Shown: in pieces, positions 8,141-52,921 of the stretch
How the letters are laid out: every line of letters begins with the position of its first letter
Numbering within the stretch: the stretch's first letter is position 1
Assembly (NCBI GenBank): GCA_017458625.1
Contig: JAFTAH010000152.1
Span: forward strand, 1 to 52,921
Direction of reading: 5' to 3'
Source of the DNA: Kiritimatiellia bacterium
Lineage (GTDB): Bacteria > Verrucomicrobiota > Kiritimatiellia > CAIQIC01 > Lenti-01
Length of the DNA stretch: 52,921 nt
Notes under the pieces: model-generated
Told to the model about the DNA's origin: nothing
Database searches by the model: none
Seen by the model: the letters and a program-made list of their open reading frames with translations, nothing else
Position numbers and translations under genes: made by a program

Positions 8141-8946
8141 GTTGCCATATCACCAAACGCGGTGAAGTGATCCCGATGGGAACAAGGACAACCATATCCA
8201 ACCGCTATAAAACGATTACAAAAGCTGTTAACCGGGCGTTCTGGGATTCCACTAGTGATGTCGCACACAGCTTGTATGTGGGATCTTATGGACGCGGGAC
8301 AGCCGTCGATACCAGTGACATCGATATCCTCGTCGAGTTGCCAAAAGCAGAATATGAGCGCTTCGACCTTTGCAAGGGCAACGGGCAATCTCGTTTGTTG
8401 CAGGCCGTGAAGGAGGCAATACAAACCACATACTCCCAAACCGATATTCGCGCGGACGGGCAAGTTGTCAAGGTGTTGTTTGCAGACGGTATGAAGTTTG
8501 AAGTGTTGCCAGCGTTTCTTTCCACTGATTGGTACGGAAAAACAACATATAGCTACCCGGACAGCAATATGGGGGGAAACTGGAAATCCACAAACCCCAA
8601 AGCCGAACAGACCGCGATGAAGGACAAGAATACGTCAAGCCGTGGACTCCTTTTTGACATATGCAAGCACATGCGTTATGTGAGGGACGAATACTTCAGC
8701 AGCTACCATCTCTCAGGAATCGTAATCGACAGTTTTGCTTATCAAGCCATAGGCGACTGGAGTTGGACAGAGAATTCATCCGCAACTGCTGTTTCGGATG
8801 GCAGATTGGAACAAGCACACTACAATCACTATGCCAGCATCTACCGATTCGTCAGCCCAATCCGCGCGCCAGGTAGCAACGATTCCGTAAACCTGTCAGA
8901 CAGCAGAGATTGCCTTGCAAAGGTGCTCAACAAGATGATGCAATGA
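8137..8946 (+). CDS. SMODS / CD-NTase nucleotidyltransferase
   Basis: This 269-residue polymerase-beta-fold enzyme is predicted to make a cyclic or linear oligonucleotide messenger. It shows the hallmark G49-S50-YGRGT followed by D61-I-D63 (metal ligands), with a third acidic position at KFEVLPAF (about 126-133). Together with the overlapping upstream SLATT gene this is a minimal two-gene CBASS arrangement: no Cap2/Cap3 (E1/E2, JAB) or HORMA/TRIP13 genes are visible. The activating ligand and product are unknown. The gene is AT-rich relative to flanking chromosomal genes, suggesting transfer. Confidence 0.85.
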   Translation: MSCHITKRGEVIPMGTRTTISNRYKTITKAVNRAFWDSTSDVAHSLYVGSYGRGTAVDTSDIDILVELPKAEYERFDLCKGNGQSRLLQAVKEAIQTTYSQTDIRADGQVVKVLFADGMKFEVLPAFLSTDWYGKTTYSYPDSNMGGNWKSTNPKAEQTAMKDKNTSSRGLLFDICKHMRYVRDEYFSSYHLSGIVIDSFAYQAIGDWSWTENSSATAVSDGRLEQAHYNHYASIYRFVSPIRAPGSNDSVNLSDSRDCLAKVLNKMMQ

Positions 8947-11299: not shown

Positions 11300-12847
11300 A
11301 TGACGTTTGACGAATTGAAAGCATTGGTGGCGGCGGGCGAAGGAGAAAGGCTCGAGCTGAAAGAGACGACCGGGCAACGTTCGGAAGCGTGCAGGGCGCT
11401 GTGCGCGTTTTTGAACAAGGACGGGGGATGCGTCGTGTTCGGTGCGACGGACAAGGCGGAAGTGCGCGGCTAGCAGGTGTCCGACAAGACGTTGCGGGAG
11501 TTGTCCGATGCGGTCGGCCGGTTTGAGCCTGCGGCGGACATCGTGACGGAGCGGGTGCCGGTCGGTAGGGGGCTGGAAGCCATCGTGTGCCGCGTGGAGA
11601 AGGGGAACGGACGGCCGTATGTGTGGGAGGGACGGGCGTACAAGCGGGTGCAATCGACAACGGTGGCCATGCCGCAGGAGGAATACGAGCGGATGCTTTC
11701 GGAACGCAAGGGCTTCCAGAGCGACTGGGAACTTCAAGTCAACCCGGCGCTGTCGATGGAGGATCTCGACCTGGAGGAAATCCGCAAGACGGCGCGCATG
11801 GGCGTCGGGGCGGGTAGGTTGCCGGAAACGACGGACACGGGGAACGCGAAGGCGTTGCTCGACGGGTTCAAGGTCCGGACGGGCGAGGGGCTGCGGAACG
11901 CGGCGGCCGTCTTGTTCTGCAAGCCCGACACGGATTACGCGCAATGCATGATGCGGCTGGCGCGGTTCAAGGGGACGGACAAAAGCCTGTTCATCGACAA
12001 CAAGCAGGTGACGGGGAACATCTTCCGGCTGCTGGACGCGGGGATGGCGTTTTGTTTCGACCATCTGGCGTTGTCGGGGCGGGTGGTGGGGTTGCTTCGG
12101 GAGGAACGGTTGGAGGTGCCGGTGGCCGCGTTGCGGGAAGCGTTGGTCAACGCCTTGGCCCATCGCCTGTATGTGCGGCGGGGGACATCGGTGTCGCTGG
12201 CCATTTACGACGACCGCGTCGAGATTGCCAATCCGGGGGCGTTCCCGCCCGGACGCACGTCCGAGGATTTCGAAAAGGGGACCGAGAGCGAACCCCGCAA
12301 TCCGGTCATCGCGCGGGTGCTGTATCTCCGCAAAATGCTCGAATCGTGGGGGCGCGGAATCAAGCTGATGGTGGACGAATGCGCCAAGGCGGGCTTGCCC
12401 AAGCCTCTCATCGGAAGCGACGGGAGGTTTGTGCGGGTGGTCTTTGCGCGGCCTCCTCGGATGGGGAAGACGTCGGAAGTGGCCGCAAAAGCCCCGGAAG
12501 TGGTGCCAAAAACTACCGAAGTGGCTTCAAACATGGTGGAAGCGGGGGGGGACACGGGCGAAATTGCGCTTGAAACTGCGCTTGAACTTGCGCTTAAAGC
12601 TGCGGGAAAGGAAATCTCGGGTAAGGTGTTCGCGCATTGCCTGCGGACATTGGAAGAGTTTTTGCGGCATCCCCGTGCGACTTTGGCGGAAGTGGCCGTA
12701 AGCGTCGGGGTTTCCGCGCGGACGGTCGACTCTTACGTGCGGTTGTTGCAGGACATCGGCATTCTCGAAAGGTCGGGGGCGCGTAAGGCCGGCAGTTGGC
12801 TTGTGACAAAGCGAATGGTGGTCGGCGGATCCAGAGACCAGACTTGA
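11300..12847 (+). pseudogene. AlbA_2 / HATPase_c_4 regulator interrupted by an in-frame amber codon
   Basis: The reading frame has an N-terminal Schlafen-AlbA_2 segment (RLELKETTGQ...GGCVVFGATDK), a HATPase-like region (LREALVNALAHRLY...IEIANPGAFPPG, WGRGIKLM) and a C-terminal winged-helix region. This is the layout of predicted transcriptional regulators annotated as ATP-binding/RNA-binding proteins. Codon 58 is TAG (11471-11473) in GGC-TAG-CAG-GTG-TCC, and the same frame continues for 458 codons. The family usually has GxQVSDKTLRE here, so a CAG-to-TAG change is the simplest explanation. The ATG at 11300 has AAGGTGG upstream. The downstream part could be re-initiated or read through; otherwise this is a pseudogene. 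Confidence 0.8.
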
Positions 12848-12909
12848 AGCAACAGGAATGGAATGAATGGACTGCCAGGTTTGACTGTGGCGTACGGGAG
12901 GGATGGAAG

Positions 12910-13992
12910 ATGAGGATTGTACGGGACGATGTGGCCAGGGCGGCGGCGGACGCCGTCGTGGACAGCGCTTGCGGGGAGGTGCGGGTCGGGGCCGGGGTGG
13001 ATTCGGCGGTGTTCGCGCGGGGGGGCAAGGAGCTGTGGGCGCGGCGGCAGGCGTTGGGGACCCTCGCGGCGGGGTCGGCGGTGGCGGTTCCGGCGACCCA
13101 GGGGATGCGGTGCCGCCAGGTGGTGTTCGTGGTGGTGCCGCCGCGCCGGGAAGGGGAGAAGGACGGCGGGGAGGCGGTCCTGCGGGAGTGCTACCGGGCG
13201 GCGCTGGAGGCGGCGCGGGGCGCGGGGTGCCGGTCGGTGTCGTTCCCGCTGCTGGGCGCGGGGCACCGGGGGTATCCGCCGGAGTCGGCGCTCCGGGCGG
13301 CGCTCGACGCGCTCGGCGCCGAGGAGGACGCGGGCGGGATGGCGTGTTCGCTGTGCCTGTATTCGACGGTGGCGGTGGGGTTGGCAAGCAGTCTGTTCGG
13401 GGAGGTCGAGGATTACCTCGGGGCGCATTTCCGGTCGGCGGAGGGCATCCGGCGGTCGATGGAGGAGGCCTGCGACGCGCTGGAGACGTGGGTCGAGGCG
13501 AGGCGGCCGTGGCCGGACGAGGAGGAGACGGGAGGCGAGGCTCTCGCCGCACCGTCCGCACCGCCGCCGCCGTCCAGACGTCGGCGCGGGCCTCTTCTCG
13601 GGGCGTTGCCGCCGGACTTGGACCGATTGCTGGCGAAGGGGACGGGGCCGGGGGTGGGCAAGGCGCTCATGGCGCTGATGAACCGCAAGCATTTCGACAA
13701 CCAGCGGCTGATCCTCAAGACCGGCATTTCGAAGCAGTTGCTGTCCAAAATCCAGAACGGCAAGCACGCCAAGGCACCCGACAAGCGATGGCTGCTGGCT
13801 TTTTCCGTGGCGCTCGGCCTGACGCTCGACGAGACGCGCGAGTTCCTGGCGACCGCCGGATACGCGCTTTCCCGCGCGAGCAAGACGGATGTCGTGGTGG
13901 AGTACTTCCTCGGCCGCGGGAATCCGCGCATCGAGGTGGTGGACGCCGCGCTGGCCTGTTGCGGGTTGCCGACGCTGTATCCCGACGAGTGA
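12910..13992 (+). CDS. Macro-domain protein with C-terminal HTH-like region
   Basis: This 360-residue protein has an N-terminal macro (ADP-ribose-binding) domain at about 1-160, with VVDSAC in place of the usual NAAN-type motif and the loop SFPLLGAGHRGYP near residue 115. A Pro/Arg-rich linker at about 210-235 follows. The C-terminal 110 residues (MNRKHFDNQRLILKTGISKQLLSKIQNG...) look like an Xre-type helix-turn-helix. Macro domains bind or hydrolyse ADP-ribose derivatives; which of these applies is not visible. The ATG at 12910 was chosen at the domain start. The next gene encodes a TerY-like vWA protein, a pairing I associate with tellurite/stress or defence loci. Confidence 0.8.
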   Translation: MRIVRDDVARAAADAVVDSACGEVRVGAGVDSAVFARGGKELWARRQALGTLAAGSAVAVPATQGMRCRQVVFVVVPPRREGEKDGGEAVLRECYRAALEAARGAGCRSVSFPLLGAGHRGYPPESALRAALDALGAEEDAGGMACSLCLYSTVAVGLASSLFGEVEDYLGAHFRSAEGIRRSMEEACDALETWVEARRPWPDEEETGGEALAAPSAPPPPSRRRRGPLLGALPPDLDRLLAKGTGPGVGKALMALMNRKHFDNQRLILKTGISKQLLSKIQNGKHAKAPDKRWLLAFSVALGLTLDETREFLATAGYALSRASKTDVVVEYFLGRGNPRIEVVDAALACCGLPTLYPDE

Positions 13993-13998
13993 GGGGGG

Positions 13999-14058
13999 GC
14001 GCCGCCGCGCCGCCGGCGCGGGCGGCGCAGTGAAAAGTGAAAAGTGAACAGTGAAAAG
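13999..14058. repeat. GC-rich palindrome followed by AGTGAAA heptad repeats
   Basis: GCGCCGCC (13999-14006) pairs with GGCGGCGC (14021-14028), with an inner GCGCC/GGCGC stem. Four 7-bp units follow (AGTGAAA, AGTGAAA, AGTGAAC, AGTGAAA; 14029-14056). It sits between the macro and vWA genes. The heptads resemble the GTTGAAA arrays of the prophage, and as there the 7-bp period places TGA in successive frames. Confidence 0.75.
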
Positions 14059-14153
14059 AGGGGGAGGGGATTGTCCACGGTCCGTTGACCCGGGCGGGCG
14101 CGATCCATGCAGAATGGGGGGCGTCGCAAGGATGCGGCGGAAAGGATGCAACG

Positions 14154-14852
14154 ATGAAAAACGCAAACGGCAAAAAGGGGAACGGCGGGCGCATGGCGGG
14201 GCGGAATCCGGAGCTGGCGGAACTGGTGTTCGTGCTGGACCGGTCGGGGTCGATGAGCGGGATGGAGCGCGCGGTGATCGACGGGTTCAACGAGCTGCTG
14301 GAGAAGCAGAAGCGGGCGCCGGGGCGGGCGCTGGTGTCGGTGGAGCTGTTCGACGACCGCTTCGACGTGGTGTACGACCGGGCGGAGCTGGGGCGGGTCC
14401 GGCCGCTGACGGAGCGGGAGTATTTCACGCGGGGATGCACGGCGCTGCTGGACGCGGTGGGGCGGGCCATCCGGCACATCGCGCGGAAGCAGCGGGAGGC
14501 GCGTCCGGCGGAGCGGCCGGGGCACACGCTGTTCGTCATCAACACCGACGGCCTCGAAAACGCCAGCCGGGAGTTCACGCGGGAGCGGATCCGGGAGATG
14601 GTGCGGGAGGAGGAGGGGCGGTACGGGTGGGAGTTCCTGTTCCTCGGCGCGAACATCGATTCCTACGCGGAGGCCGGGGCGCTGGGCATCCGCGCGGAAA
14701 TGACGTGCAATGTGGTGGCCGACGCGGGCGGCGTGGCGGCGAATTTCGGGAGCGTCGCGGAAGCGGCGGAGAGCCTGCGGGTCACCGGGACGGCGGGCCG
14801 CGCATGGCGCCGGCGGGTGGACGAGGACTACGCCCGGCGCGGGGGGGAATGA
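14154..14852 (+). CDS. vWA-domain protein (TerY-like)
   Basis: This 232-residue protein is a von Willebrand factor A domain with the MIDAS metal site D29-R-S31-G-S33. Later metal-site candidates are RGCTALLDAVG (about 97) and VINTDGLENAS (about 130). TerY-type vWA proteins bind metal ions and protein partners and occur in tellurite-resistance and stress modules. The ATG at 14154 has AAAGGA upstream; an internal start at Met14 is also possible. It probably shares function with the macro-domain gene, although the GC-rich palindrome and heptads separate them. No kinase/phosphatase partner of a TerY-P triad is visible. Confidence 0.85.
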   Translation: MKNANGKKGNGGRMAGRNPELAELVFVLDRSGSMSGMERAVIDGFNELLEKQKRAPGRALVSVELFDDRFDVVYDRAELGRVRPLTEREYFTRGCTALLDAVGRAIRHIARKQREARPAERPGHTLFVINTDGLENASREFTRERIREMVREEEGRYGWEFLFLGANIDSYAEAGALGIRAEMTCNVVADAGGVAANFGSVAEAAESLRVTGTAGRAWRRRVDEDYARRGGE

Positions 14853-14963
14853 ACGCGCGGCGGCGGAGAACCAGCAAAGCGGAACACGACAGGAGGCCAA
14901 CCCTGTGGCTGTTCACGAAACACGGAGTTCAGGGGTGTTCACTCGGCGGGCGTGTAGCCCTCC

Positions 14964-15097
14964 GGGGAGTTGTCGTTTTCCCTTGCGGCGCAAAAAGTTA
15001 CACGGCATGGAAGTCGAATTGTGCGGTTTTCCACGGCATGGAAACCGCTTTGTCCCCGTTGTCCCTGCCCTAGTGGCACAGGCGACCCGCCTGCGGG
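14964..15097. repeat. Dispersed repeat, copy 1 (GCGCAAAAAGTT...GGCATGGAA)
   Basis: Contains GGGGAGTTGTCGTTTT, GCGGCGCAAAAAGTTACAC, two GGCATGGAA units, TTTGTCCCCGTTG and a closing hairpin CAGGCGACCCGCCTG. The same series in the same order is at 16719-16817. This copy has one extra GGCATGGAA segment. No gene is visible in the 261-bp gap it occupies. Confidence 0.75.
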
Positions 15098-15113
15098 GGA
15101 GGGGAGGGGGGCG

Positions 15114-15623
15114 TCAATCCGCGCCGATGCCCTGGAGGATGCCGAGCATGCCGGTCGCAGCGATGTCGTCGATGATCTTGCCTTCGTCGTCGAAGACGTA
15201 GAAGTTCATGACGGACGTGGAGAACTTGCGGCCGTTGGGCTGGATGCCGGCGAAGGGCGCCTTGCCAGTGAAGGTGCCGGTGCAGGTCCACCGGACGGCG
15301 ACAGTCTTTTCGTCCGCCACCATGTCCTCCAGCTTCCACTGCACGTCGGGGAAGCTCGCGCGCATGAGCGAGACGACGGAGAGATACCCCTCCGCGCCGT
15401 GGAGCGGCTCGGGCGAGACGGGCGTCGCGAAGGCGGCCTTTTCGGAGATGAGCTCGCGGCCGAGCGCGAGGTCGTTCTCGTTGATGCATTTCTCGAAGCG
15501 GCGCATCGCCTCGCGGTTGCGATCGATTTTCCCGTCGCCGCCGCCGCAGGAGCATCCGGCGGCCAGCAGGAGCCCCGCCGCCAAGCACGCGGCGAGACGC
15601 AGTCCGTTTGCGAACTTCTTCAT
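15114..15623 (-). CDS. SnoaL-like (DUF4440/ester-cyclase-type) lipoprotein
   Basis: This 169-residue protein has a lipoprotein signal peptide (MKKFANGLRLAACLAAGLLL, then AAGC with the lipid cysteine at about 24). The mature part fits the SnoaL/NTF2-like fold: NREAMRRFEKCINENDLALGRELI..., FPDVQWKLEDMVADEKTVAVRWTCTGTFTGKAPFAGIQPNG. Related proteins include polyketide cyclases and many of unknown function. It is the last gene of a minus-strand set with a cupin and a MarR regulator; 47 bp separate it from the cupin stop. It is predicted to be anchored in a membrane; the substrate is unknown. Confidence 0.8.
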   Translation of the reverse strand: MKKFANGLRLAACLAAGLLLAAGCSCGGGDGKIDRNREAMRRFEKCINENDLALGRELISEKAAFATPVSPEPLHGAEGYLSVVSLMRASFPDVQWKLEDMVADEKTVAVRWTCTGTFTGKAPFAGIQPNGRKFSTSVMNFYVFDDEGKIIDDIAATGMLGILQGIGAD

Positions 15624-15670
15624 GGTCGGAGTCCTTTCCGTTTCCGTTTGCCGGGGTTTCGCGTGACGTG

Positions 15671-16120
15671 CTACCACTGGACCGGCCCGTCCAGGATCGT
15701 GCCGTCGGACGGGTTGACGGCGCCGGGGGCGGCGGCGACGTATTGGATGCAGAGCATCACGAGCGGCGCGTCGCCGGTGTTGCGGACCGCGCGCTTGCCC
15801 GCCGGGGAGACGCGGACCACGCTGCCCTCCTTCACGGGGATGTTGTGGCCGTCCACCTGGTATTCGCCGGTGCCGGAGAGGAAGAAGTAGAGCTCCTCGT
15901 GGTCCTTGTGGACGTGGTAGAAGCCGCCCTCCGTCCCGGGCGCGAACAACTGGAACGAGAAGTCCGCGCCGCCGGCCTTCACGGCCGCGCCGCCGAAGAC
16001 CTTGCCGGGGATTTTCACGCCGGGGCCGAGTTCGAGCACGTAGTCCGAGAGTTCCGCGAGGGGGCCAAGGTCGATGGCGGTGGCGTTGGGGAGGTCGGCG
16101 GTGGTTTTGATTTCTTTCAT
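15671..16120 (-). CDS. Cupin-domain protein
   Basis: This 149-residue single cupin has its first motif at about GGFYHVHKDHEELYFFLSGTGEY (two His and one Glu as likely metal ligands) and its second around VRVSPAGKRAVRNTGDAPL, where the usual His appears replaced. Small cupins bind metals and act as enzymes or sensors; the substrate cannot be told. The ATG overlaps the MarR stop codon (ATGA, 16117-16120), so translation is probably coupled. With the SnoaL-like protein it makes a small MarR-controlled operon, perhaps for detoxification or modification of a small molecule (inference). Confidence 0.83.
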   Translation of the reverse strand: MKEIKTTADLPNATAIDLGPLAELSDYVLELGPGVKIPGKVFGGAAVKAGGADFSFQLFAPGTEGGFYHVHKDHEELYFFLSGTGEYQVDGHNIPVKEGSVVRVSPAGKRAVRNTGDAPLVMLCIQYVAAAPGAVNPSDGTILDGPVQW

Positions 16121-32737: not shown

Positions 32738-33172
32738 TCATGATCCGTAAGGGGTGGGTGGGGCTGCGGCAAGCTGTGGGGCATCAGATGAAGACCGGCC
32801 GGCCTTCCCGCAGGAGAGGGCTTCGATGACGCGTTGCTGGCTCTCGATGATGGAGAGGAGGCGGGAGACCTCGGCATCGCGGACTGCGCCGCCGGTGCTG
32901 ACGGTGGAGTGGTTCGCCGCCACGGACCCGCCCGAGGCCGTCAGAGAGACGCCGGTGGAAGGCTCGTCCGTCAGGCCGAGAAGCCAGTCGGAGGACACGC
33001 CAGCGCTTTCGGCAATCTGGCATAAAGTTCTCAGGTCAGGTTCGCGTTCGCCAGTCTCATAACGCGAATAGGAGCCTTGTTTCAGTCCTAGTTTTTTCGC
33101 GAATTTCCCTTGATTTTCCTTGCCGCGCAACAATTTCAGTCGCGCCAAAAACGGGGCAAAATATTTTTTCAT
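32738..33172 (-). CDS. CI-like phage repressor (Xre HTH)
   Basis: This 144-residue protein has an N-terminal Xre helix-turn-helix at about 8-62 (GKFAKKLGLKQGSYSRYETGEREPDLRTLCQIAESAGVSSDWLLGL). A Ser/Ala-rich linker and a short helical end (VSRLLSIIESQQRVIEAL), perhaps for dimerisation, follow. No LexA-like self-cleaving protease is present, so induction cannot use classical CI cleavage. Its ribosome site (GGAG) lies inside the first operator-like repeat upstream, and it is divergent from the Cro-like gene. Confidence 0.83.
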   Translation of the reverse strand: MKKYFAPFLARLKLLRGKENQGKFAKKLGLKQGSYSRYETGEREPDLRTLCQIAESAGVSSDWLLGLTDEPSTGVSLTASGGSVAANHSTVSTGGAVRDAEVSRLLSIIESQQRVIEALSCGKAGRSSSDAPQLAAAPPTPYGS

Positions 33173-36271: not shown

Positions 36272-36317
36272 GGATGAATGAGGAGAGAGCGATGATGGGG
36301 AACGAGATTGCAAACAC

Positions 36318-36356
36318 GGCTGCCGGACAGGGACGTTCTTTCCGTCCTGTTCAGCC
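36318..36356 (+). terminator. Hairpin between early genes
   Basis: GGACAGGGACG pairs with CGTCCTGT around a TTCTTTC loop, flanked by GGCTG/CAGCC. No strong T-run follows, so it could be a weak terminator or an RNA-processing hairpin. Confidence 0.4.
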
Positions 36357-36413
36357 CCAGCGGGGCGGGGTGTCCGTGCGGAGCCCCGCACTTTTGGTGG
36401 CAAGGGACGGAGG

Positions 36414-36620
36414 ATGGACGCCGTGAAGCTGGGCGTGGTGTGTCTGCTGGGGGCCGGGTTCCTGTTTGGCTGGTTGGCGGCGGAGGGCGCGTTCGCGGTC
36501 ATCGAGTCTCACTGGCTGGAGCGGATCGAGGCCGCCGAGGCCCGCGCCGCACGCGCCGAGGAATGGGCCGAGGTCGTCGAGGAGGAGGCCAGGATGTGGG
36601 TGGCGGAGAGGGAGAGATGA
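36414..36620 (+). CDS. Small membrane protein upstream of the methyltransferase (spanin/holin-like shape)
   Basis: This 68-residue protein has one N-terminal membrane helix (VKLGVVCLLGAGFLFGWLAAEGAFAVI) and a charged helical C-terminus (LERIEAAEARAARAEEWAEVVEEEARMW). The shape fits many small phage membrane proteins, but the position among early genes argues against lysis. The stop TGA overlaps the methyltransferase ATG (ATGA). Confidence 0.6.
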   Translation: MDAVKLGVVCLLGAGFLFGWLAAEGAFAVIESHWLERIEAAEARAARAEEWAEVVEEEARMWVAERER

Positions 36621-37930
36621 GACGGACGTGCATCAACACCGTGGACCTCTTCTGCGGGGCCGGCGGAGCCAGCACCGGGATGGAGCTTGCCCTGGAAAGG
36701 CTGGGGCTTGTCCACAAAGGGCTCGCCATCAATCATTGGCAGGTGGCCGTGGACACCATGAAGGCGAACCATCCGGCCATCGACACGAAGCAGATGTCCG
36801 TCGAGGAGGCCGTGCCCGCCGACCTCGTTCCGGGCGGGGTCGTGGACCTGCTCTGGGCTAGTCCGTCCTGCACGCACCACTCCAGGGCGAAGGGCGGGAA
36901 GCCACGTAGCAACCAGCTCCGAGCGCAGCCTGAACTGATCCTGACGTGGCTTGACCAGCTTTTCGTCCGCCGCATCATCATCGAGAACGTCCCCGAGTTC
37001 GTCCAATGGGGGCCGCTGGGGCGCGACGGGCGGCCTCTCAAACGGAAGGAGGGGGCGTGCTTCGCTGCGTGGGTGGAGGGCATCCGTGCGCGGAACTACG
37101 AGGTGGAGTGGCGGATCGTCAACTGCGCCGACTATGGAGACGCGACGAGCCGGAAGCGGTTCTTCCTGAAAGCCGTGAGGAAGGGGTGCGGGCGGATTCG
37201 GTGGCCGGAGCCGACGCACGCGGAGAATCCGGAAACGGACCTTTGGGGCAAGAAGCTCAAGCGGTGGCGCGGAGTGAGGGAGTGCCTGGACCTGGAAGAC
37301 CTGGGGCGGAGCATCTACGGGCGGAAGACGCCTCTGTCCGAAAACACGTTGCGGAAGATTGCCGTCGGCATGGCGCAATACAACGGGATTTTCCTGATGG
37401 ACATGCTGGGGACGGACGGCAGCGAAGCGGACTACGCGCGGCGGTGCCACGGGCTGGAGGAACCTTTGCCGACCCAACACGCCGGGGGCAACCGTTGCGC
37501 CGTCGTCCGTCCGTTCATCGTCAGACTGAACCGGAATTGTTTTGCGGAAAGCGTTGACGAGCCTCTTTTCGCGGTGACGGCGGGCGGACAGCACCACGTT
37601 TTGTGTTCGCCGATGGTGCTTGACCATTTCCGCAACGGAGAGGTGACGGATGGGCGGGAGCCGCTTGGCGCGCAGACGACGCACGACCGTTTTTCGGTGG
37701 TGACGCCGGTTGTCGTGAAGGACGGGGACGGGCTTCCGCGGCTCCCGGACGGGCGGTATCTCGACATCCTCATTCGGATGCTCAAGCCGTCCGAACTGGC
37801 CGCCGCGCATTCGTTCCCGGAGGACTACAAGCTGACGGGGAACAGGACGGAACAGGTCAAGCAGATCGGGAACAGCGTGCCCGTCCGGACGGCGGCGGCC
37901 ATGTGCGAGGCGGACTTGAAATGCGCATGA
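36617..37930 (+). CDS. C5-cytosine DNA methyltransferase
   Basis: This 437-residue protein transfers a methyl group from AdoMet to cytosine C5. It has motif I DLFCGAGGAS at about 10-19, a catalytic-loop segment WASPSCTHHS at about 81-90 (Pro-Ser-Cys instead of the usual Pro-Cys), motif VI IIENVPEF at about 117, SRKRFF (motif VIII) and QIGNSVP (motif X) near the end. No restriction partner is adjacent, so it is probably an orphan phage methyltransferase that protects phage DNA from host restriction. It is coupled to the small upstream membrane gene. Confidence 0.93.
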   Translation: MRRTCINTVDLFCGAGGASTGMELALERLGLVHKGLAINHWQVAVDTMKANHPAIDTKQMSVEEAVPADLVPGGVVDLLWASPSCTHHSRAKGGKPRSNQLRAQPELILTWLDQLFVRRIIIENVPEFVQWGPLGRDGRPLKRKEGACFAAWVEGIRARNYEVEWRIVNCADYGDATSRKRFFLKAVRKGCGRIRWPEPTHAENPETDLWGKKLKRWRGVRECLDLEDLGRSIYGRKTPLSENTLRKIAVGMAQYNGIFLMDMLGTDGSEADYARRCHGLEEPLPTQHAGGNRCAVVRPFIVRLNRNCFAESVDEPLFAVTAGGQHHVLCSPMVLDHFRNGEVTDGREPLGAQTTHDRFSVVTPVVVKDGDGLPRLPDGRYLDILIRMLKPSELAAAHSFPEDYKLTGNRTEQVKQIGNSVPVRTAAAMCEADLKCA

Positions 37931-41650: not shown

Positions 41651-41852
41651 GAATAGGCCCGTGGGGCTGCGGTACGGGACATCGAGGAATGGGCGGCGCT
41701 GGTGGGTGTATCTGGGGACGGAGGTGCTGCATGAGGGGCGGGCGATGAACCGTCGGAATGCGCGGCAACGTGCGAAGGCGTGGATGGCGGACTGGCTGGC
41801 GGCGGAGGACCGGCGGTATCCGCCACAGGAGAAGAAGGAGGATAATCGATGA
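41637..41852 (+). CDS. Small basic protein, possibly AP2/arm-binding-like
   Basis: This 71-residue, strongly basic protein (GLRYGTSRNGRRWWVYLGTEVLHEGRAMNRRNARQRAKAWMADWLAAEDRR) has strand-strand-strand-helix order, the pattern of integrase arm-type or AP2-like DNA-binding domains. It ends four bases inside a gene for a recombinase catalytic domain that lacks such an N-terminal domain, so the two could act together. AGGAG precedes the ATG. Confidence 0.55.
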   Translation: MPVNKNRPVGLRYGTSRNGRRWWVYLGTEVLHEGRAMNRRNARQRAKAWMADWLAAEDRRYPPQEKKEDNR

Positions 41853-42478
41853 GTTCGATGGTGCCGTTCACGCGGGAGGAGCTGCGGGCGATCGGGGCGA
41901 CGTTCGCGGGGGGCACGAGCCTGGACAAGCGGGACCGTGCGCTGTTCGCGCTTGGTGTTTGCAGCCGGTGGCGGATCAGCGAGATGCTGGCGCTGCGGCG
42001 GCGGGACCTCCTGGACCAGGACGGGAAGGTGCGGCGGCATATCGAGATGCCGGGGCGGTTCACGAAAACGCAGAAGGCGAGTCGTCTGGACATCGGGGAG
42101 CACCTGGTGGGGATTCTGGCGGCGTGGCTGAAGGAGTGCGAGGCGTGGGGGTGCTGGCGGAGGGATGATCCGGCGTTTCCGAAGGAGGGGGCGCGGGTGG
42201 CGCTGGGTCGGAAAGCGGCGTGGAGGATGGTCAAGCGGCGGTGCGCGATGGCCGGGGTGCCGCAGGACCGCCACGGGACGCATAGTTTCAAGAAGACGGC
42301 GCTGGCAGTGGTCTACGAGCACTGGGTGGAGAAGGGCGACGCCGACGCGCTGCGGAAGACGCAGGCGTGGAGCGGCCATGCGAGCCTGGCGCAGCTTGAG
42401 GCGTATCTACGCGAGCTGCCTGGCGGCGTGTATTCGGTGGGGCAGGAGCTGGCGGCCGGAAATGCGGAGGAGCTGTGA
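41849..42478 (+). CDS. Tyrosine recombinase catalytic domain (second, not at the att site)
   Basis: This 209-residue protein covers only the catalytic half of a tyrosine recombinase. First Arg region is LGVCSRWRISEMLALRRRDL. The second box reads HGTHSFKKTALA, where HxxR appears as HxxK. WSGHASLAQLEAYL supplies the last His and the Tyr. No core-binding domain is present, and the small basic gene just upstream may substitute. It is in the early region, far from the attachment site, so it could be for resolution or regulation rather than integration. It overlaps neighbours by ATGA/GTGA. Confidence 0.78.
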   Translation: MSSMVPFTREELRAIGATFAGGTSLDKRDRALFALGVCSRWRISEMLALRRRDLLDQDGKVRRHIEMPGRFTKTQKASRLDIGEHLVGILAAWLKECEAWGCWRRDDPAFPKEGARVALGRKAAWRMVKRRCAMAGVPQDRHGTHSFKKTALAVVYEHWVEKGDADALRKTQAWSGHASLAQLEAYLRELPGGVYSVGQELAAGNAEEL

Positions 42479-44711: not shown

Positions 44712-45093
44712 ATTGGTGCCGAACTACCGTTGAACGGTTGTTGAACTCCCTTGTTCCGTCGCCGGCCCGAAAAGGGTGGAACAAAACAGGCAAAGAACGA
44801 TTTGATGGGGGTCAAGGGGATGAAATGGTGGGGAAAACGCGCGAAAAGGGCCAAAAACGTCCAAAAAATGCCAGCGTAAAGAAATGGGCGACGTGCATTT
44901 TCGTCAATGCTGTATTGACAAATCCGCATTTTTGAAAGTCCAAAAAGGGGGTATTTTTGTACGCCTTTGGATTCGCGGGCGCGAAACGCGCGTAATATGG
45001 AAAGGCGAAAAATGGCCTTCCGAGAAAAAAGTGAAAAAAAGACTTGACGCGGCGTGTGGGGATGTGAGGGTCGTGCACGACAAGGGTTTGACG
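44712..45093. other. 382-bp gap between replication and virion modules
   Basis: It contains a decayed heptad motif with palindrome CCGTT-G-AACGG (44727-44746), a purine-rich tract and TTGACA at about 44917. The frame of the portal gene is open upstream but the sequence is low-complexity. No terminase gene is present although many phages carry one here. Confidence 0.55.
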
Positions 45094-47460
45094 ATGGCAG
45101 ATTTGATGGCAATAGTCGCGCCGGTTGCGAAAGAGCCGGAGGATCCGCTGGTTCTGGCGGGAGCGCCGGCACTGGACGGGTCGGACGCAGCACCGACGCC
45201 GGACGAGCTGGCGGCGGACGCGATCAGCGCGGACCTGGCGGGCCGGTTCCGTGCGGCGCAGGATTCGCGAAAGGAGATCGAGGCGTCGATGCTGGCGGAC
45301 CAGCGGCGGCGTCTGGGACAGTACTCTCCCGAGAAGCTGGCGAAGCTGACCAGGCAGGGCGGGAGCCGCGCGTTCGACCGCATCACGGAAGCGAAGTGCG
45401 CGGCGGCGGAAGGTAAGCTGGTGGAGATGCTGCTTTTGAGCCGCGGCCATCCGTGGCACGTGGAGGCTACTCCGATCCCCGACCTCACTCCGGAGCAGGA
45501 GGAGGAGATCGCGATGGAGCTGGCGCGGGAGATCGGGGAGGAGGCGCAGCAGTCGCCGATGGGCGGGGAGGATGTGGAGGCGCTGTTCCTGGAGCGCTGG
45601 AACGACGCGAAGGCGCGCTACGAGCGGAGGGTCAAGGAGAAGGCCGATGCGAGCGCCGCGCGGATGGAGAAGCAGATTTCGGACTACATGGAAGAAGGCG
45701 ACTGGCAAGGCGTCCTCGCGGATTTCATTTACGATTTTGTAACCTATCCGGTCGCGGGCATCATGGGGCCGATTCCGTACACGACGATGCGCGAGAAATG
45801 GACGGCGGACGGCGTGACGTGGGAGGATGACATGCAGGTCGGGTTCGAGCGCATGGACCCGTTCGGCATCTATCCGGCCGCCATGAGCGCGGAAGCTGGC
45901 GACGGGGACTTCTTCTACCGTCGCCTCATCCCCGACGACGCGGCGCTGGAGCTCGGGCGGATGAGCGGGGTGATTCCCGGCGCGTTCGAGAAGGCGTATG
46001 CGGCGCACGGCAAGATCGGGGACGGCGACGTGGACCAGCAGATTGCCGAAAGCGAGAACAACCAGGGCAAGACCGGCGACGTTTTCAACCCGGACAAGGG
46101 GCACGAGCTGGTGTACTGGTGGCACCGCATGACGCGGAAGGAGGCCGCCGGGGCCTGCCGCCGGGAGCTGGAGGAGGGGGAGCAGCCGGACGAGCGCATC
46201 CCGTACTACGGTCTCATGCTCAACGGCATCATCATCACCTGCGTGGAGAACTGGGACAGGAGTGGACGTCCGCAAGTCCACCTTTGCAGCTTCGAGAAGA
46301 AGCCGGGGACCATCTTCGGGGAAGGGATTTCGTCGCTGATGGCCGGGCCGCAGGCGAACCGGAACTCCAACCGCCGGGCGCTGAACACGAACAGCGACAT
46401 GAGCGCGCAGCCGGCCCGCGTGGTAAACAGCGAGCGGTTGCAGAATCCGGAGGCCGCGGGGACGGCGTTCCCCGGTCAGGTGTTCCTCGTGCGTAGCAGC
46501 GTGATTCCCGGCGACAACCAGCCCGCCGTCTCGTATCTGGAGACGCCGAACAACACGGGCGCGATCCTCGCCGCCATCAAGCAGACGGACCAGGACGCGG
46601 ACGACATCACGGGCGTGTTCCCGCAGGCCTACGGCAGCAACCGGCAGGTCGGCCCGGCGCAGACGCTGGGCGGCCTGCAGCTGCTGCGGGAGGACCAGGC
46701 GACGCGGCTGAAGCTAGGCGTCGTGCATATGGAGAAGTGCCTGCGGAGCTTCTTTACGGCGATGGCGCGGTTCATCATGGTGTTCGGGCCGCGGGATTGC
46801 TGGGGCGACCAGAAAGTCACGGTGCAGGGGCCGATTAAGCTGTATTTGGAAAGCGCGGCGTCGGACGTTTACGTGGCGGACATGGAGCTGCTCAAGACCT
46901 ACAAGGAGGAGATGGGCATTGCCATCCGGCCAGAGGCTTTCGTGCGGCTGGCCCGGAAGGTTTTCGAGACGCGGCGGGAGGATCCCGCGGACTACATGCT
47001 GACGGACGACGAGCTCCGCCAGGAGAAGGAGCGCATGGAGCAGGAGGCGGCGGCTTCCGCCGTCCCGCCGCAGGGCGCGGAGGTTCCGCCGGAAGGCGGC
47101 GAGGAGGCCGGCATTCCGCCCGGCGCGCCGCCGCTGGAGGACGTTCCGCCGCAGCAGGGCGCGGAGCTGCCGCCGGAAGAGGGCGCGGAAGCCCCCGCGG
47201 AGCCGCCCCCGCCGCAGGAGGATCCGCGAATGATCCAGGCGCAGGCGGCGCTTCTCCGCGCGCAGACGGCGGACCGGGCGCAGGCCGCCCGAGAGGACCT
47301 GGAACGGCGCAAGCTGCTGCTCGAGGAGACGAAGCTGGTGAGCCTGCTGCGCCTAGCACAGCGGAAGAACGCGGCGGAGGCCGCGGAACGCCGTAGCCGC
47401 ATCGAGGCGTCCACGTTCGGTGCGCTGGGGACGGTCGGCGGCACGGGAGGAGCGGCATGA
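45094..47460 (+). CDS. Portal protein (P22-like)
   Basis: This 788-residue protein would form the head vertex ring through which DNA passes. Long helical N-terminal region, then the portal core: IYDFVTYPVAGIMGPIPYTTMREKWTADGVTWEDDMQVGFERMDPFGIYPAA and PGTIFGEGISSLMAGPQANRNSNRRALNTN, DDITGVFPQAYGSN, all consistent with P22/podovirus portals. The C-terminus has a Pro/Glu-rich region (about 650-710) and a final coiled coil (about 715-775, MIQAQAALLRAQTADRAQAAREDLERRKLLLEETKL). The ATG at 45094 was chosen because upstream sequence is not portal-like. ATGA overlap with the next gene. Confidence 0.85.
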   Translation: MADLMAIVAPVAKEPEDPLVLAGAPALDGSDAAPTPDELAADAISADLAGRFRAAQDSRKEIEASMLADQRRRLGQYSPEKLAKLTRQGGSRAFDRITEAKCAAAEGKLVEMLLLSRGHPWHVEATPIPDLTPEQEEEIAMELAREIGEEAQQSPMGGEDVEALFLERWNDAKARYERRVKEKADASAARMEKQISDYMEEGDWQGVLADFIYDFVTYPVAGIMGPIPYTTMREKWTADGVTWEDDMQVGFERMDPFGIYPAAMSAEAGDGDFFYRRLIPDDAALELGRMSGVIPGAFEKAYAAHGKIGDGDVDQQIAESENNQGKTGDVFNPDKGHELVYWWHRMTRKEAAGACRRELEEGEQPDERIPYYGLMLNGIIITCVENWDRSGRPQVHLCSFEKKPGTIFGEGISSLMAGPQANRNSNRRALNTNSDMSAQPARVVNSERLQNPEAAGTAFPGQVFLVRSSVIPGDNQPAVSYLETPNNTGAILAAIKQTDQDADDITGVFPQAYGSNRQVGPAQTLGGLQLLREDQATRLKLGVVHMEKCLRSFFTAMARFIMVFGPRDCWGDQKVTVQGPIKLYLESAASDVYVADMELLKTYKEEMGIAIRPEAFVRLARKVFETRREDPADYMLTDDELRQEKERMEQEAAASAVPPQGAEVPPEGGEEAGIPPGAPPLEDVPPQQGAELPPEEGAEAPAEPPPPQEDPRMIQAQAALLRAQTADRAQAAREDLERRKLLLEETKLVSLLRLAQRKNAAEAAERRSRIEASTFGALGTVGGTGGAA

Positions 47461-47986: not shown

Positions 47987-49111
47987 ATGGAAGACAAGAC
48001 CCAAAGCCCCACAGACACCAAAGGTACGGACCCCACGCAGGGAATTCTCGACGGCGCGCCGCAGCTCGACAACGACGGAGGCCTGGTCACCCAGGACGCC
48101 CTCGATGCCGCTTCCGACGCCGCCCTGGAGAAGGCCCTGGCGGACCTCGAACGGGATGCCGTAGAGGGCCAGCCGCCGGATGACGACGGCAAGCCCGACG
48201 ACGGAACGCCCCCGGCGGATGCGAATCCCCCGGCGGACAAGCCCGCCGAGCCGCCGCCCGCCGCGCCGAAGGAGCCCACGGTGGAGGAACGGATCGCCGC
48301 CGCCCGCGAAGAAGCGCGGAAGGAGGCGATGCGCGAGGCCGCCGGACGATTCGGAAGCGAGAAGCAGGCCCTGCTCGCCCGCACCGCGGAACTGGAGGAG
48401 CAGCTGGGGAAGACCCGTCAGAAGCAGCCGACGTTCGACCCGGACGCGCCCATCACGGACGAGGACCGGATTGCCGTCGGCGGCGCGAACTGGAAGGACG
48501 ACTACACGACCGAGGACATCGACCGGGAGGTCCGGGAACGCCGTCGCAGCGTGGCGCATTTTGCCGCCCCGCTGGTCAACGCGGCCCTGGCCGCCGCGCA
48601 GAGCTCGGTTGCCGAGGAGCGACGCGTCGCGGAGCTCTTCGCCGCCGTGGACGCCGAAGTTCCGTCCGCCTCCGACCTGGACGCCAACGCGGAAACCAAT
48701 GGTTTCAAGGAGTACCTCGATGGCCGGATGCCGGGAACGGCGTCCACCCGCCGCGAGGTCGTCGATGACGCCATCCGCCGCTGCAAGCTGGGAATCCCCG
48801 GCGCGCTCGATGTTGCAAAGGAAGTCATTTCCTCCTGCTACAAGGGCTATCTGTCCGACACGTCGCCTTCCGCCGACAAAACCAAGTCAACCGCAACCAC
48901 AACCACGCCCGCTCCGAAGGCCCAGCCCGCCGTCGTGATGCCGAAGCTCCCGTCCGCCTCCGCAGGCGCCACCGCCCCTCGTCAGCAGAAGATGACGATG
49001 GAGCAGGTGCAAGCCTACCTGAAGAAGGCGGCCACCAAGGGAGAAGAGGTCTATCAACGTGCCCAGGCCTGGGTCGTGGAGCAGGCCGCAAGCGGGAACA
49101 TCGTCGGATAG
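47987..49111 (+). CDS. Scaffold-like capsid assembly protein
   Basis: This 374-residue protein is acidic and Pro/Asp-rich at the N-terminus (about 1-100). A coiled coil follows (about 105-145, EERIAAAREEARKEAMREAAGRFGSEKQALLARTAELEEQLGKT), then a helical body and a low-complexity Thr/Ala/Pro linker (about 295-330) before a C-terminal helix. It lies directly before the coat gene. Composition and position fit a scaffolding protein; no protease domain is seen. Confidence 0.7.
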   Translation: MEDKTQSPTDTKGTDPTQGILDGAPQLDNDGGLVTQDALDAASDAALEKALADLERDAVEGQPPDDDGKPDDGTPPADANPPADKPAEPPPAAPKEPTVEERIAAAREEARKEAMREAAGRFGSEKQALLARTAELEEQLGKTRQKQPTFDPDAPITDEDRIAVGGANWKDDYTTEDIDREVRERRRSVAHFAAPLVNAALAAAQSSVAEERRVAELFAAVDAEVPSASDLDANAETNGFKEYLDGRMPGTASTRREVVDDAIRRCKLGIPGALDVAKEVISSCYKGYLSDTSPSADKTKSTATTTTPAPKAQPAVVMPKLPSASAGATAPRQQKMTMEQVQAYLKKAATKGEEVYQRAQAWVVEQAASGNIVG

Positions 49112-49163: not shown

Positions 49164-50135
49164 ATGCCTGCTATCGAACGTGCAGCCGGCCACCCCAACT
49201 GGGTTGGCAAGCTCATCCCGGAGCATCTGTATGCTCCTCTCATCGACGCCCGCATCTACGCGGCGACGTGCCTGCCCCAGATCACCACCTCCAAGTACAA
49301 ACGCGAGGAGGCGATGGCGGTCAAGAACATCGGCGCGACCGTCCACGTGCAGCGCGCGCCCGTCATCCACACCCAGAAGTACGTCAAAGGGGGCGAGATC
49401 GAGATCGATCCCTCCATCGGCGACGGCTTCGAGCTGACCATCAACCGGGCCAACACCTGGAACAAGTTCCACGACCTCATCGACGCCACGGCCTCGCCGC
49501 ACAAGAATCTCACCAGCATCGAGCTCTCCGCCGCCGGCGACACCGAGGCGGTGGACATGGAGACCGAGTGCTTCGGCGAGTGGGCGAACTTCCCGGACGC
49601 GAACAACGTCGGCAACACCGCCGGCTTCCAGACGCACCAGCTCGTGCTGGGCACCATCGACCATCCGGTCATCCTCTCCAAGGACAACGCAGTCAGCTAC
49701 TTCATGCAGTTCGGCACGCTGTTCGACGAGGTGAACCTGACGGACCGCAACGGCACGCTGTCCGTCGTGATGCCGCCCGCCGCGTCCCTGCTGTTCCGCC
49801 AGTCGGCCCCGGTGATCGACTCCAGCCAGTCCGGCGTGAAGTCCTCGCTGCAGACCCGCCTGTTCCGCAAGAGCTATGAAGGTATCGGCGACCTGTACAC
49901 CTCGACGCTGCTGCCCTCGCCCGCGTCCGGCGTGTTCCCGATCCTCGCCCTCCGCGCGGACGGCCTGGCGTTCTTCGCGAAGAACCTGCAGACCCGCGCG
50001 AACCGCGAACTGGAAAAGACGTTCGGCACGCTCTCCAGCGGCGTCTACGTCTACGACTGGAACGTGATTCGGCCCGAGGCCATCGCCATCGGGTACGTCA
50101 AGCTGTCCATGCCGACCATCACCACGGAGCAATAA
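49164..50135 (+). CDS. Major capsid (coat) protein
   Basis: This 323-residue protein is of the P22 coat / HK97-fold kind in my reading: N-terminal PEHLYAPLIDARIYAATCLPQITTSKYKREEAMAVKNIGATVHVQRAPVIHTQKYVKGGEIEI, then GFELTINRANTWNKFHDLIDATASPHKN. Composition is even, with no low complexity. Position after the scaffold and the pattern of neighbours support the call. A GGAGAT ribosome site precedes the ATG. A 9-bp-arm hairpin follows the stop. Confidence 0.8.
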   Translation: MPAIERAAGHPNWVGKLIPEHLYAPLIDARIYAATCLPQITTSKYKREEAMAVKNIGATVHVQRAPVIHTQKYVKGGEIEIDPSIGDGFELTINRANTWNKFHDLIDATASPHKNLTSIELSAAGDTEAVDMETECFGEWANFPDANNVGNTAGFQTHQLVLGTIDHPVILSKDNAVSYFMQFGTLFDEVNLTDRNGTLSVVMPPAASLLFRQSAPVIDSSQSGVKSSLQTRLFRKSYEGIGDLYTSTLLPSPASGVFPILALRADGLAFFAKNLQTRANRELEKTFGTLSSGVYVYDWNVIRPEAIAIGYVKLSMPTITTEQ

Positions 50136-50197: not shown

Positions 50198-50237
50198 CCT
50201 CTTCCGACACCACACCACACCCCATAGGAATCACATC

Positions 50238-50690
50238 ATGAAAAAGAAACTGTTTGTCCTGGCTCTCGCCGCCGCCGTCGTCGCATCCATCGCGGTCGTG
50301 GCCGCCGAAATCGACCTCACCGACGGCGCGACTGGCGTCGGCATCAAGTCCGCCGACAAGGCGTTCGTCGTCTCGACGACCATCGACTTCGAGAAGACGA
50401 CCGTTGCCGCCGACGACACCGCCGTGCTGTTCGTCAAGCCCGCCGACTGCATCCTCGTGAACACGTGGGTGACCGGCGACTTCGCGACCGCCGTGGCGGT
50501 CAAGAAGATGCCGGCTTCCACCAACGTCTGGTCGAGCATCGGCAGCGTCACCGGCTCGGTGAGCTCGGCTGTCGCCGTGGCAGGGACCGTCCTGGACACG
50601 GAAGATGTCAAGATCGGCGCGACGTTCTCCGCCGCACCGACCAGCGGCGTCGTGACCGTGCACAGCCTGCTCTACCGCCTCGCGGAATAG
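50238..50690 (+). CDS. Virion-module protein with an N-terminal signal peptide
   Basis: This 150-residue protein begins with a clear Sec-type signal (MKKKLFVLALAAAVVASIAVV, then AAE). The mature part is Val/Ala/Thr-rich and beta-like (DLTDGATGVGIKSADKAFVVSTTIDFEKTTVAADDTAVLFVKPADC), like head-decoration proteins. A signal peptide is unusual for a protein that should assemble in the cytoplasm. No family recognised. Confidence 0.65.
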   Translation: MKKKLFVLALAAAVVASIAVVAAEIDLTDGATGVGIKSADKAFVVSTTIDFEKTTVAADDTAVLFVKPADCILVNTWVTGDFATAVAVKKMPASTNVWSSIGSVTGSVSSAVAVAGTVLDTEDVKIGATFSAAPTSGVVTVHSLLYRLAE

Positions 50691-50710
50691 CCCAGGAAAG
50701 GAACGACACC

Positions 50711-51040
50711 ATGGCAGCAAAAACCATCAACCGCGCAATGATGCGCAAGAAGGACGGGCGCATCATGCCCTACAGCGAAACGCTCATCGCCAAGCACCCC
50801 GGCGCATACGTCGAATGGTCCAAGGAGACGGGGGCGGCCGACCGGCCGCTCGTCGCCGCGAAGAACGAGACGCCCCTGCTGAAGGTGCCGGATCCCGGAC
50901 TGGCCCCCGCGCCGTCCGCCGCCGGCGTCGTCCTGCCCTCCGACATCGACCCGGACAACCCCGCCGACCCGGCCGCCGAGGCCGAGATGGCCGCGCGGCT
51001 CGCCGGGGCGAAGGCCGCCGCGCGCGGCAAGCGCAAGTAG
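50711..51040 (+). CDS. Hypothetical virion-module protein
   Basis: This 109-residue protein has an N-terminus with basic residues and KKDGRIMPYSETLIAKHPGAYVEW, a pattern seen in small head accessory proteins. The rest is Pro/Asp/Ala-rich with a basic end (KAAARGKRK). AGGAAAGGAA precedes the ATG. Function unknown. Confidence 0.6.
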   Translation: MAAKTINRAMMRKKDGRIMPYSETLIAKHPGAYVEWSKETGAADRPLVAAKNETPLLKVPDPGLAPAPSAAGVVLPSDIDPDNPADPAAEAEMAARLAGAKAAARGKRK

Positions 51041-51052
51041 GGGCCTCCGAAG

Positions 51053-51661
51053 ATGGCCGCCCGGAACGAAATCGTCGAGCTCGTCCGCGCCCGCCTGCGC
51101 GGCATCCCGGAACCTGCGGCGCGCGTCCACGTGCGGCGCGCGCTCGCGGAGGTCTGCCGCGACACCAAGGCGTGGACGTGCGACCTGACGGCGACGGTCC
51201 CGGACGGCCAGGAGGCCCCCGCTCGCGGTCCCGCCCTGCTGACGCTCTCCGAAATCCCCTTCGACGCGGACATTTTCGCGCTGCTGGGGGTGGAGGGCGT
51301 CACGCCGCGCGGCTCTGTCATGCCCCTGCCAGCCGAGGCGTTCCGGCTGCGCGGACCGGTCCTCGAAGACCCGCGATCTCTCTCCCGCGGCTATTCGTCC
51401 GTCCGCGTCCGCGTCGCCCTCGTGCCAAGGCTGGCGGGTCGCATCCTCGAAGAGGCGCCGGAGCCGCTGCTGAACCGCATCTCCGACCTCGTGACGGAGC
51501 TGGCGACGGCCTACGCCGCCGGCGAGACGCGAATGCCCTGGGCGGACCCGCAGCTGGCGCAGGCCTCCCTCTGGCGCTACCAGCGCGCCCTCGGACGCCA
51601 CAACGCCATCGCCATGCCGGAGCTCCGGCACTATCACGTCCTCCCCTCCATCGAAGAGTAG
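51053..51661 (+). CDS. Putative head-tail connector / adaptor-like protein
   Basis: This 202-residue protein (EIVELVRARLRGIPEPAARVHVRRALAEVCRDTKAWTCDLTATV) is helical at the N-terminus then beta-rich. The order portal-scaffold-coat-small-this-tail fits an adaptor or tail-completion protein, in line with P22 gp4-like sizes, but no motif proves it. A GCCTCCGAAG spacer precedes the ATG; the stop is 3 bp before the next gene. Confidence 0.55.
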   Translation: MAARNEIVELVRARLRGIPEPAARVHVRRALAEVCRDTKAWTCDLTATVPDGQEAPARGPALLTLSEIPFDADIFALLGVEGVTPRGSVMPLPAEAFRLRGPVLEDPRSLSRGYSSVRVRVALVPRLAGRILEEAPEPLLNRISDLVTELATAYAAGETRMPWADPQLAQASLWRYQRALGRHNAIAMPELRHYHVLPSIEE

Positions 51662-51664
51662 AGC

Positions 51665-52921
51665 ATGAAATCCATCCGCCTCTCCGCCTGCACCCTCCTC
51701 CTCCTCGCGTCCTGCGCCATGACGGGCGTCCAGGCCCTCGCGGCCACCGCCCGCGTCACCGTGGACGTGGGCAGCAAAGACATCGCATCCACAAACACTC
51801 TCGCCCTGGGCGAAAACGCCCTCGTTCTCGTCCGAAACCTCGGCGACAGCCAGCCCGCCGACCTCTTCGTCTCGCTCCATGACCGCCGCAACGGTGAAAT
51901 CCTAGCTGGTGCCTCCAACTTCGTCGCGGACATCCAAACGTCAGTTTGGACCAACTGGTCGTGGAGCGGGACATCTTCCGTCCCGTCCGTCGTCTCCTCG
52001 ACCGTCACCAACGCCATCGGCTATCTCCCGCTGGACACCACAAACCTGTTCGCCCGCTTCGCAGGCCTCCCGGTCACCGCGGAGCGGACGTTTATCCTCT
52101 CCGTCTACGATGCTTCCAATCGCTGGGTACTTGGCCAGGACGATATTTCCATCCGCAATTCCGCCCTCTGGTCCGCCCCGACCTCCTCGCCTTTCAAGTC
52201 CTTCCCCGATTACTTCCTCGATCTCCTCCGCGAGACTAATGCCGTCCTCTCTGCTGCCCTCTCTGCTCATATTTCGGACACGAACAACCCCCACAACGTG
52301 ACCGCGGCGCAGCTGGGCGCACTGACGGCCGAGTCAGACCCGCTTGCCCTTCCAGCAATCCAAGCTGCAAGCAATGCCCTAAGTTCCACCCTCTCCGCCC
52401 ATGTTTCCGACACCAATAATCCCCATCGTGTCACGCTTGAGCAGCTCAACCAGTCAGACGAACTTGGCACCCTCCTCTTCGCCTATGGTATCAACGCATG
52501 GCTCAACGAAGGCTTGAAGTACATCACCTGGACCGACCACCGTGTCGATCTCGAAAATGGCACCTTTTATGGGGCGTGGGATTTTTCGGACTATCCCCCC
52601 TCCTTCGATGGCGCCAGGCTGACTACCACCAACGACATCAATGCTGCGATGCGAGACATGGACGACGCCTTGTCCGCCGAATTCGAGTATCTTTTGGCCG
52701 CAATTCGCGCTACTTCCAACGCAATTCCCTCCGCCTCCGGCTTCCCACTAACCATCAACGCCGACTTCGCATCTTTCTCCGCGACCAATGTCGGCTCCAT
52801 CCAGCTCGCAGGCGCAACCAACGAGCTCGCCGTCGTGGACGGCAAGCTCAAGTACGGCGGCAAGTCCGTTGCAGGAGTCGCGAACCTCACTGCCGGACGC
52901 AATATCGAGCTGTCCACCAAC
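51665..52921 (+). CDS. Tail-fibre-like protein with export signal (partial, runs off the window)
   Basis: The frame is open to the last base (419 codons seen). It begins MKSIRLSACTLLLLASCAMT, a signal peptide with a possible lipobox LASC at about 17 and an alternative signal-peptidase I site at ALAA. Two copies of a (I/V)SDTNNPHxVTxxQL motif (about 200 and 250), found in many phage tail fibres, are present. The remainder is Ser/Thr/Asn-rich. Export signals on a tail fibre are unusual; a host-surface adhesin is an alternative. Confidence 0.75.
   Translation, partial: MKSIRLSACTLLLLASCAMTGVQALAATARVTVDVGSKDIASTNTLALGENALVLVRNLGDSQPADLFVSLHDRRNGEILAGASNFVADIQTSVWTNWSWSGTSSVPSVVSSTVTNAIGYLPLDTTNLFARFAGLPVTAERTFILSVYDASNRWVLGQDDISIRNSALWSAPTSSPFKSFPDYFLDLLRETNAVLSAALSAHISDTNNPHNVTAAQLGALTAESDPLALPAIQAASNALSSTLSAHVSDTNNPHRVTLEQLNQSDELGTLLFAYGINAWLNEGLKYITWTDHRVDLENGTFYGAWDFSDYPPSFDGARLTTTNDINAAMRDMDDALSAEFEYLLAAIRATSNAIPSASGFPLTINADFASFSATNVGSIQLAGATNELAVVDGKLKYGGKSVAGVANLTAGRNIELSTN

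Follow-up and report, generated by a model that had tools for sequence, protein, structure and literature searches.

The usual view is that tailed-phage virions are complete before lysis, while still in the cytoplasm. Host Sec export is used by other phage proteins: the filamentous phage coat proteins pIII and pVIII are Sec-inserted, and signal-bearing or SAR endolysins and spanins are Sec-exported phage lysis proteins. PblA and PblB of Streptococcus phage SM1 are phage-encoded proteins that end on the lysogen surface, for which they need holin and lysin (PMC2920869). Among tailed phages, SU10 (Kuravirus) has the gene order capsid gp9, Ig-like gp10, adaptor gp11 and long tail fibre gp12 (PMC9509320), although gp10 is not seen in SU10 heads. 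Ig-like capsid cement proteins, usually without a signal and bound as trimers outside the capsid at its three-fold and quasi-three-fold axes, are known from Pam1, GP4 and KHP30/KHP40. In GP4 they lie as trimers on the outside of the capsid (PMC9698820).

The locus studied here lies at the right of a 52,921-base contig (C111, hereafter the window), from a genome bin of 2.69 Mb that is 80% complete. Its gene order and portal family are those of SU10 but, unlike in SU10, export signals are present on the proteins that correspond in position to gp10 and gp12. Virion proteins made with Sec signals recall the filamentous phages, whose virions are extruded from the membrane, whereas the window encodes a tailed dsDNA phage; its module holds tailed-phage portal and capsid genes and is not of the type with a filamentous single-transmembrane coat protein. 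PblA and PblB depend on holin and lysin for their surface location, and the exported lysis proteins, unlike the virion-type proteins of the window, are not virion parts. We found no published precedent for a signalled cement or fibre protein in a tailed phage in the open-access papers searched; what is new to that literature is to find three known elements, a cement protein, an SU10-like module and a Sec signal, together in a tailed phage and across several lineages.

The virion module and its two signalled proteins

Repressor and integrase matches identify the right part of the window as a temperate phage, with a DNA methyltransferase also encoded in the phage region (Table 1). By portal family (PF23899 cut-off, 30 bits) and gene order, the morphogenesis module is assigned to an SU10-like temperate phage. 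The capsid protein is 27% identical to that of Rhizobium phage RHph_TM3_14A (E 2e-17). The probable scaffold had no family match in Pfam or PHROG, and the adaptor-like protein matched only its PHROG family, with no match to Pfam SU10_adaptor. Both open reading frames of the original prediction are present as it described them, the second running for 419 codons with no stop until it is cut by the contig end.

Table 1. Features of the window, and signalled genes in the modules of loci L207 and L225
Feature	Position	Strand	Evidence or remark
Phage-type repressor	32738..33172	-	phrog_8 transcriptional regulator, E 6e-17; marks temperate phage; prophage left edge nearby
DNA methyltransferase	36308..37930	+	phrog_116, E 7e-64
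Tyrosine-type integrase-like protein	41849..42478	+	phrog_216 integrase, E 3e-18
Portal protein, SU10-like, without signal	44884..47460	+	PF23899 SU10_portal, 34.4 bits; phrog_332, E 7e-23
Probable scaffold	47987..49111	+	Gene order only: between portal and capsid genes
Major capsid protein, without signal	49164..50135	+	phrog_267, E 4.5e-6
Capsid cement (decoration) protein homologue with N-terminal Sec signal	50238..50690	+	Profile, fold and direct matches
Cement Sec signal peptide (predicted), 22-23 residues	50238..50303	+	Score 31.8; cleavage VVA22↓A or VAA23↓E
Cement mature N-terminus (predicted)			AEIDLTDGATGVGIK or EIDLTDGATGVGIK
Small protein without signal, encoded between the cement and adaptor genes	50711..51040	+	Gene call
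Adaptor / head-completion-like protein, without signal	51053..51661	+	phrog_437 virion structural protein, E 1.2e-12
Tail-fibre-like protein: signal, Ig-like base domain, helix, NPHN repeats	51665..52921	+	phrog_8147 tail fibre, E 7e-11
Fibre Sec signal (predicted), about 24-26 residues	51665..51742	+	Score 22.7; absent from signal-less homologues
L207 signalled adaptor	12550..13275	+
L207 signalled large protein	13285..15252	+
L225 (G067) signalled module genes	8367..8810, 12534..14315, 14380..15195, 15204..16001

The cement gene, which encodes 150 aa, starts with an ATG 102 bases past the end of the capsid gene, and an AGGA Shine–Dalgarno-like motif (50226–50229) stands eight bases before that ATG. 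Several lines identify its product as a capsid cement homologue, by sequence profile and predicted fold. Alone, it had no Pfam or PHROG match. Its predicted mature part directly matches signal-less relatives in two other phages (L101, E 9e-5; L024, E 4e-4), and post-capsid proteins of the surveyed loci link up into a single family of 119 members, the other signalled cement proteins among them. A 47-member profile of this family (A5) searched against the PDB matched only virion proteins of the cement kind: Pam1 cement (7eel_H, E 2e-7), KHP30 cement (7dn2_1, E 0.0024) and, weakly, GP4 (8h89_J, E 0.25). The window model, of moderate quality (pLDDT 70, TM about 0.5), ranked GP4 (2.1e-4), Pam1 (2.6e-4) and KHP40 (1e-3) first to third in Foldseek, with KHP30 fifth. 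The window protein thus shares with these Ig-like cement proteins a capsid-adjacent gene, a profile match and a predicted fold; they usually have no signal, whereas it and its homologues in five other lineages do.

The second protein is identified from its sequence as a tail-fibre protein, with a conserved virion domain and fibre repeats. In the model, its base (residues ~30–165) is a beta-sandwich with pLDDT mostly 87–96, lower across an insert at 91–110, followed by a helix and then NPHN repeats that match phage tail-fibre families. A fold search with the base gave nothing significant. Besides the window, ten distinct phage loci in the alignment have the base domain (a further match, L030, was left out of the alignment); only the window and L115 place a signal before it, and 9 of the 11 homologues begin right at the domain.

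Signals were called with a heuristic, rule-based score (n-region charge, hydrophobic core, −3/−1 rule) on which 13 known E. coli signals score 18.9–26.4. Of the two window proteins, the cement protein (31.8) lies above that range and the fibre (22.7) within it, whereas no other called window protein, the portal, capsid and adaptor proteins included, scored as a signal. Random N-termini with the protein's own body composition reached the observed score in 0 (cement) and 8 (fibre) of 20,000 trials, and shuffles of its own first 45 residues did so in 3 and 124 of 20,000. Both proteins have the basic n-region, uncharged hydrophobic core and small −3/−1 residues of Sec and signal peptidase I substrates, the cement N-terminus (MKKKLFVLALAAAVVASIAVVA↓AEID) being canonical. 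The original prediction had seen clear Sec-type signals on both proteins and proposed a signal-prediction check, and the scores and shuffle controls bear it out: both proteins are predicted to carry genuine Sec signals in front of a usually signal-less domain. In alignment-based AlphaFold models of the two proteins, the first ~25–29 residues have low confidence and lie outside the folded domains.

The possible lipobox that had also been proposed for the fibre is ambiguous. LASC at residues 14–17 (L14-A-S-C17) fits the lipoprotein consensus used ([LVI][ASTVI][GAS]C, placed where the hydrophobic core ends), but signal peptidase I sites that follow it (VQA24↓L and ALA26↓A) fit equally well and the L115 homologue has no cysteine at that position, so we regard the lipobox as possible and do not prefer it.

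Signals across the cement family

Single-protein scans of viral contigs found no relatives of the window capsid and cement proteins, and at that sensitivity the cement protein had no relative in other genomes of the same class; a scan of genome contigs gave a single relative, in Verrucomicrobia bacterium UBA6056 (phylum Verrucomicrobiota, same class). Relatives were reached through the portal and capsid proteins across the class, and through capsid alignments. Among the ~197 distinct cement ORFs collected from 370 loci, signals occur in six lineages: the window, L032 (a prophage of G027, of the same bacterial class), L115, L366, L159, and L174 with L176, which are near-identical and counted as one. 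About 190 of the 196 distinct relatives have none. Single weak signals need care, because the survey used a heuristic score and let the start codon shift by up to 35 codons. A signal called on the L236 cement protein was rejected as a false positive from an internal Met, and the signalled post-capsid protein of L147, which did not link up with the cement family, was left uncounted.

The position of the predicted cleavage is regular. It leaves 42–45 residues ahead of the conserved xxPAG motif in all six signalled cement proteins, compared with 39–45 residues, once Met is removed, in seven of the eight signal-less relatives in which the motif was found (nine were examined; the pattern had no match in L139 and matched an earlier position in L141). 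The predicted mature protein of L174 begins ATVDLT, the same as signal-less L101 after its Met; signal-less L145 reads ATVDRT after its Met. Cleavage is thus predicted to restore the N-terminus of signal-less relatives in 6/6 signalled lineages. One cement gene was found per signalled locus, so the virion, if decorated, would carry the signalled protein; the contigs are incomplete, and a second, signal-less copy could lie elsewhere.

Export signals were, on this sequence evidence, most likely added to outer-virion proteins more than once. A supported capsid clade (SH-aLRT 98) unites L159 with L174, and each is signalled, with differing signal sequences. L115 is signalled and L024 is not, although their capsid proteins are 54% identical. 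On a quickly built capsid tree, no fewer than three signal changes are needed. Because an AU test, on data with long branches, does not reject a single signalled clade (p 0.42), we claim recurrence across lineages and give no firm count of gains.

In the window capsid clade, 37 of 452 genes downstream of the capsid gene were signalled; the comparison group had 8 of 514 (Fisher p 8e-7, a value that ignores kinship among the phages), and the first post-capsid gene was signalled in 7/80 versus 0/74 (the seven include L147, which is not a cement homologue, and the near-identical L174 and L176). In three unrelated contigs (the window, L115 and L366), both the cement protein and a downstream protein are signalled; the latter is fibre-like in L115, and in L366 it had no detectable homology to the fibre base and no PHROG match. 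The two signals are not obligately coupled, because in L032, L159 and L174 the cement protein is signalled and the fibre-base protein is not. L032 also has a signalled Tail_Collar protein (PF07484, E 9e-19; phrog_523, E 1.5e-26), L207 a signalled SU10 adaptor (PF24175, E 3e-19; phrog_399, E 9e-13), and L147 and L161 have large signalled proteins that contain LamG; the signalled proteins are mainly virion-exterior ones. The claim that virion-type proteins here have export signals is upheld by the cement homology, the fibre base domain and repeats, and the repeated occurrence in other phages, and that recurrence makes chance or mis-annotation unlikely.

Possible fates of the signalled proteins

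Three fates had been offered for the two proteins: display on the lysogen surface, receptor masking, or loading during passage through the envelope. The cleavage register slightly favours the last, because processing is predicted to restore a normal cement protein. We tentatively favour, over surface display or a non-functional signal, a sequence of events in which capsid, portal, scaffold and DNA packaging would be kept cytoplasmic while mature cement and fibre would be moved by Sec into the periplasm, cut by signal peptidase to give their usual N-terminus and retained in that compartment; once lysis opens the inner membrane, they would bind to the exterior of filled heads and tails. Parts that are outermost, sticky or able to bind surfaces would in this way stay clear of assembly and of the host cytoplasm until the phage is released, a benefit that must be optional because most relatives do without signals. 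The signalled adaptor of L207 fits such export poorly, because adaptors are neck components expected to work at packaging and normally close the filled head. Disulphide-dependent folding was considered as a general cause of export and is unlikely: the mature window proteins have one (cement) and no (fibre) cysteines, and signalled post-capsid proteins average 1.4 cysteines compared with about 1.0 in unsignalled ones. Extending the favoured reading, it is possible, if doubtful, that a set of tailed phages, at least some with Verrucomicrobiota as hosts, make DNA-filled heads in the cytoplasm and add, outside the inner membrane, a Sec-exported outer layer made of cement and fibres and in some cases of the adaptor and further neck or tail proteins.

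An alternative that we consider somewhat unlikely is that the proteins act at the envelope or surface, in receptor masking, superinfection exclusion or adhesion, and belong to the virion little or not at all. PblA and PblB set a precedent for phage proteins on the lysogen surface, reached via holin and lysin (PMC2920869), many Tail_Collar proteins of this class are Sec-exported and encoded away from any obvious phage module, and the possible fibre lipobox would suit an envelope location. Against these stand the position of the genes inside a morphogenesis module in canonical order, the sole cement gene found at the locus with cleavage restoring its normal N-terminus, and the lack of any obvious receptor-mask use for a capsid cement. 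It is unlikely, too, that the signal is present and most of the protein nevertheless stays cytoplasmic through fast folding, inefficient export or an internal start, as might be suggested by the many relatives made without a signal and by a GTG at codon 20 of the cement gene (50295), which would give MAAEIDLT, near the signal-less relatives. Such a form would explain normal assembly of adaptor and cement, but a Shine–Dalgarno motif precedes the ATG and none precedes the GTG, strong signals with good cleavage sites would hardly recur if they served no use, and L159 and L174 retain signals despite their differing sequences.

By their length the hydrophobic cores could cross a membrane, and an uncleaved N-terminal anchor could tether heads and tails there during assembly or release; good small-residue −3/−1 sites in all the signalled proteins make this improbable. 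An artefact of wrong start codons or chance hydrophobic N-termini is the least credible explanation: start calls are predicted and the score is heuristic, but six signalled lineages in one homologous family, 0/74 signalled first post-capsid genes in the comparison group, the cleavage register and the shuffle controls largely refute it. Signal peptides on phage structural genes should not be dismissed as annotation errors. Returning to the favoured reading of periplasmic holding and attachment at lysis, the recurrent cement signals with regeneration of the N-terminus would mean either virion completion outside the cytoplasm, as it proposes, or a second envelope job for structural proteins.

Further signalled proteins in the surveyed phages

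In L207, the adaptor and the next large protein both start with Sec-type signals (Table 1), and the latter is related to signal-less proteins of 675–1192 aa in other phages. In L225, a phage-like module of the same class with a more distant capsid protein, four genes are signalled: the one immediately ahead of the capsid gene and three that lie downstream. Signalled proteins of 763–965 aa in L162, L188 and L202 occupy the same position and have a homologous N-terminal domain (E about 1e-75), which makes them a second signalled fibre-like family.

Small signalled proteins (~117–122 aa) occur shortly after the cement gene in L142, L148, L151, L161, L298, L300 and L301, all in one capsid clade, and several of them end alike, in ..AY or GY. 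In the comparison group, L053, L055, L059, L061, L063, L064, L097, L112 and L118 share a structural-module protein of 250–500 aa, encoded ~2.4–3.7 kb past the capsid gene, with a weakly signal-like hydrophobic N-terminus (scores 18.6–24.4).

Secreted Tail_Collar proteins of ~340 aa were seen at G000:C149, G000:C21 and about 17 other loci of the class (within L375–L397), with the layout signal, YQGVLRDAQG, collar. These proteins, common in the class, look like surface or secreted proteins of the host, and they are a possible source of signalled fibre genes.
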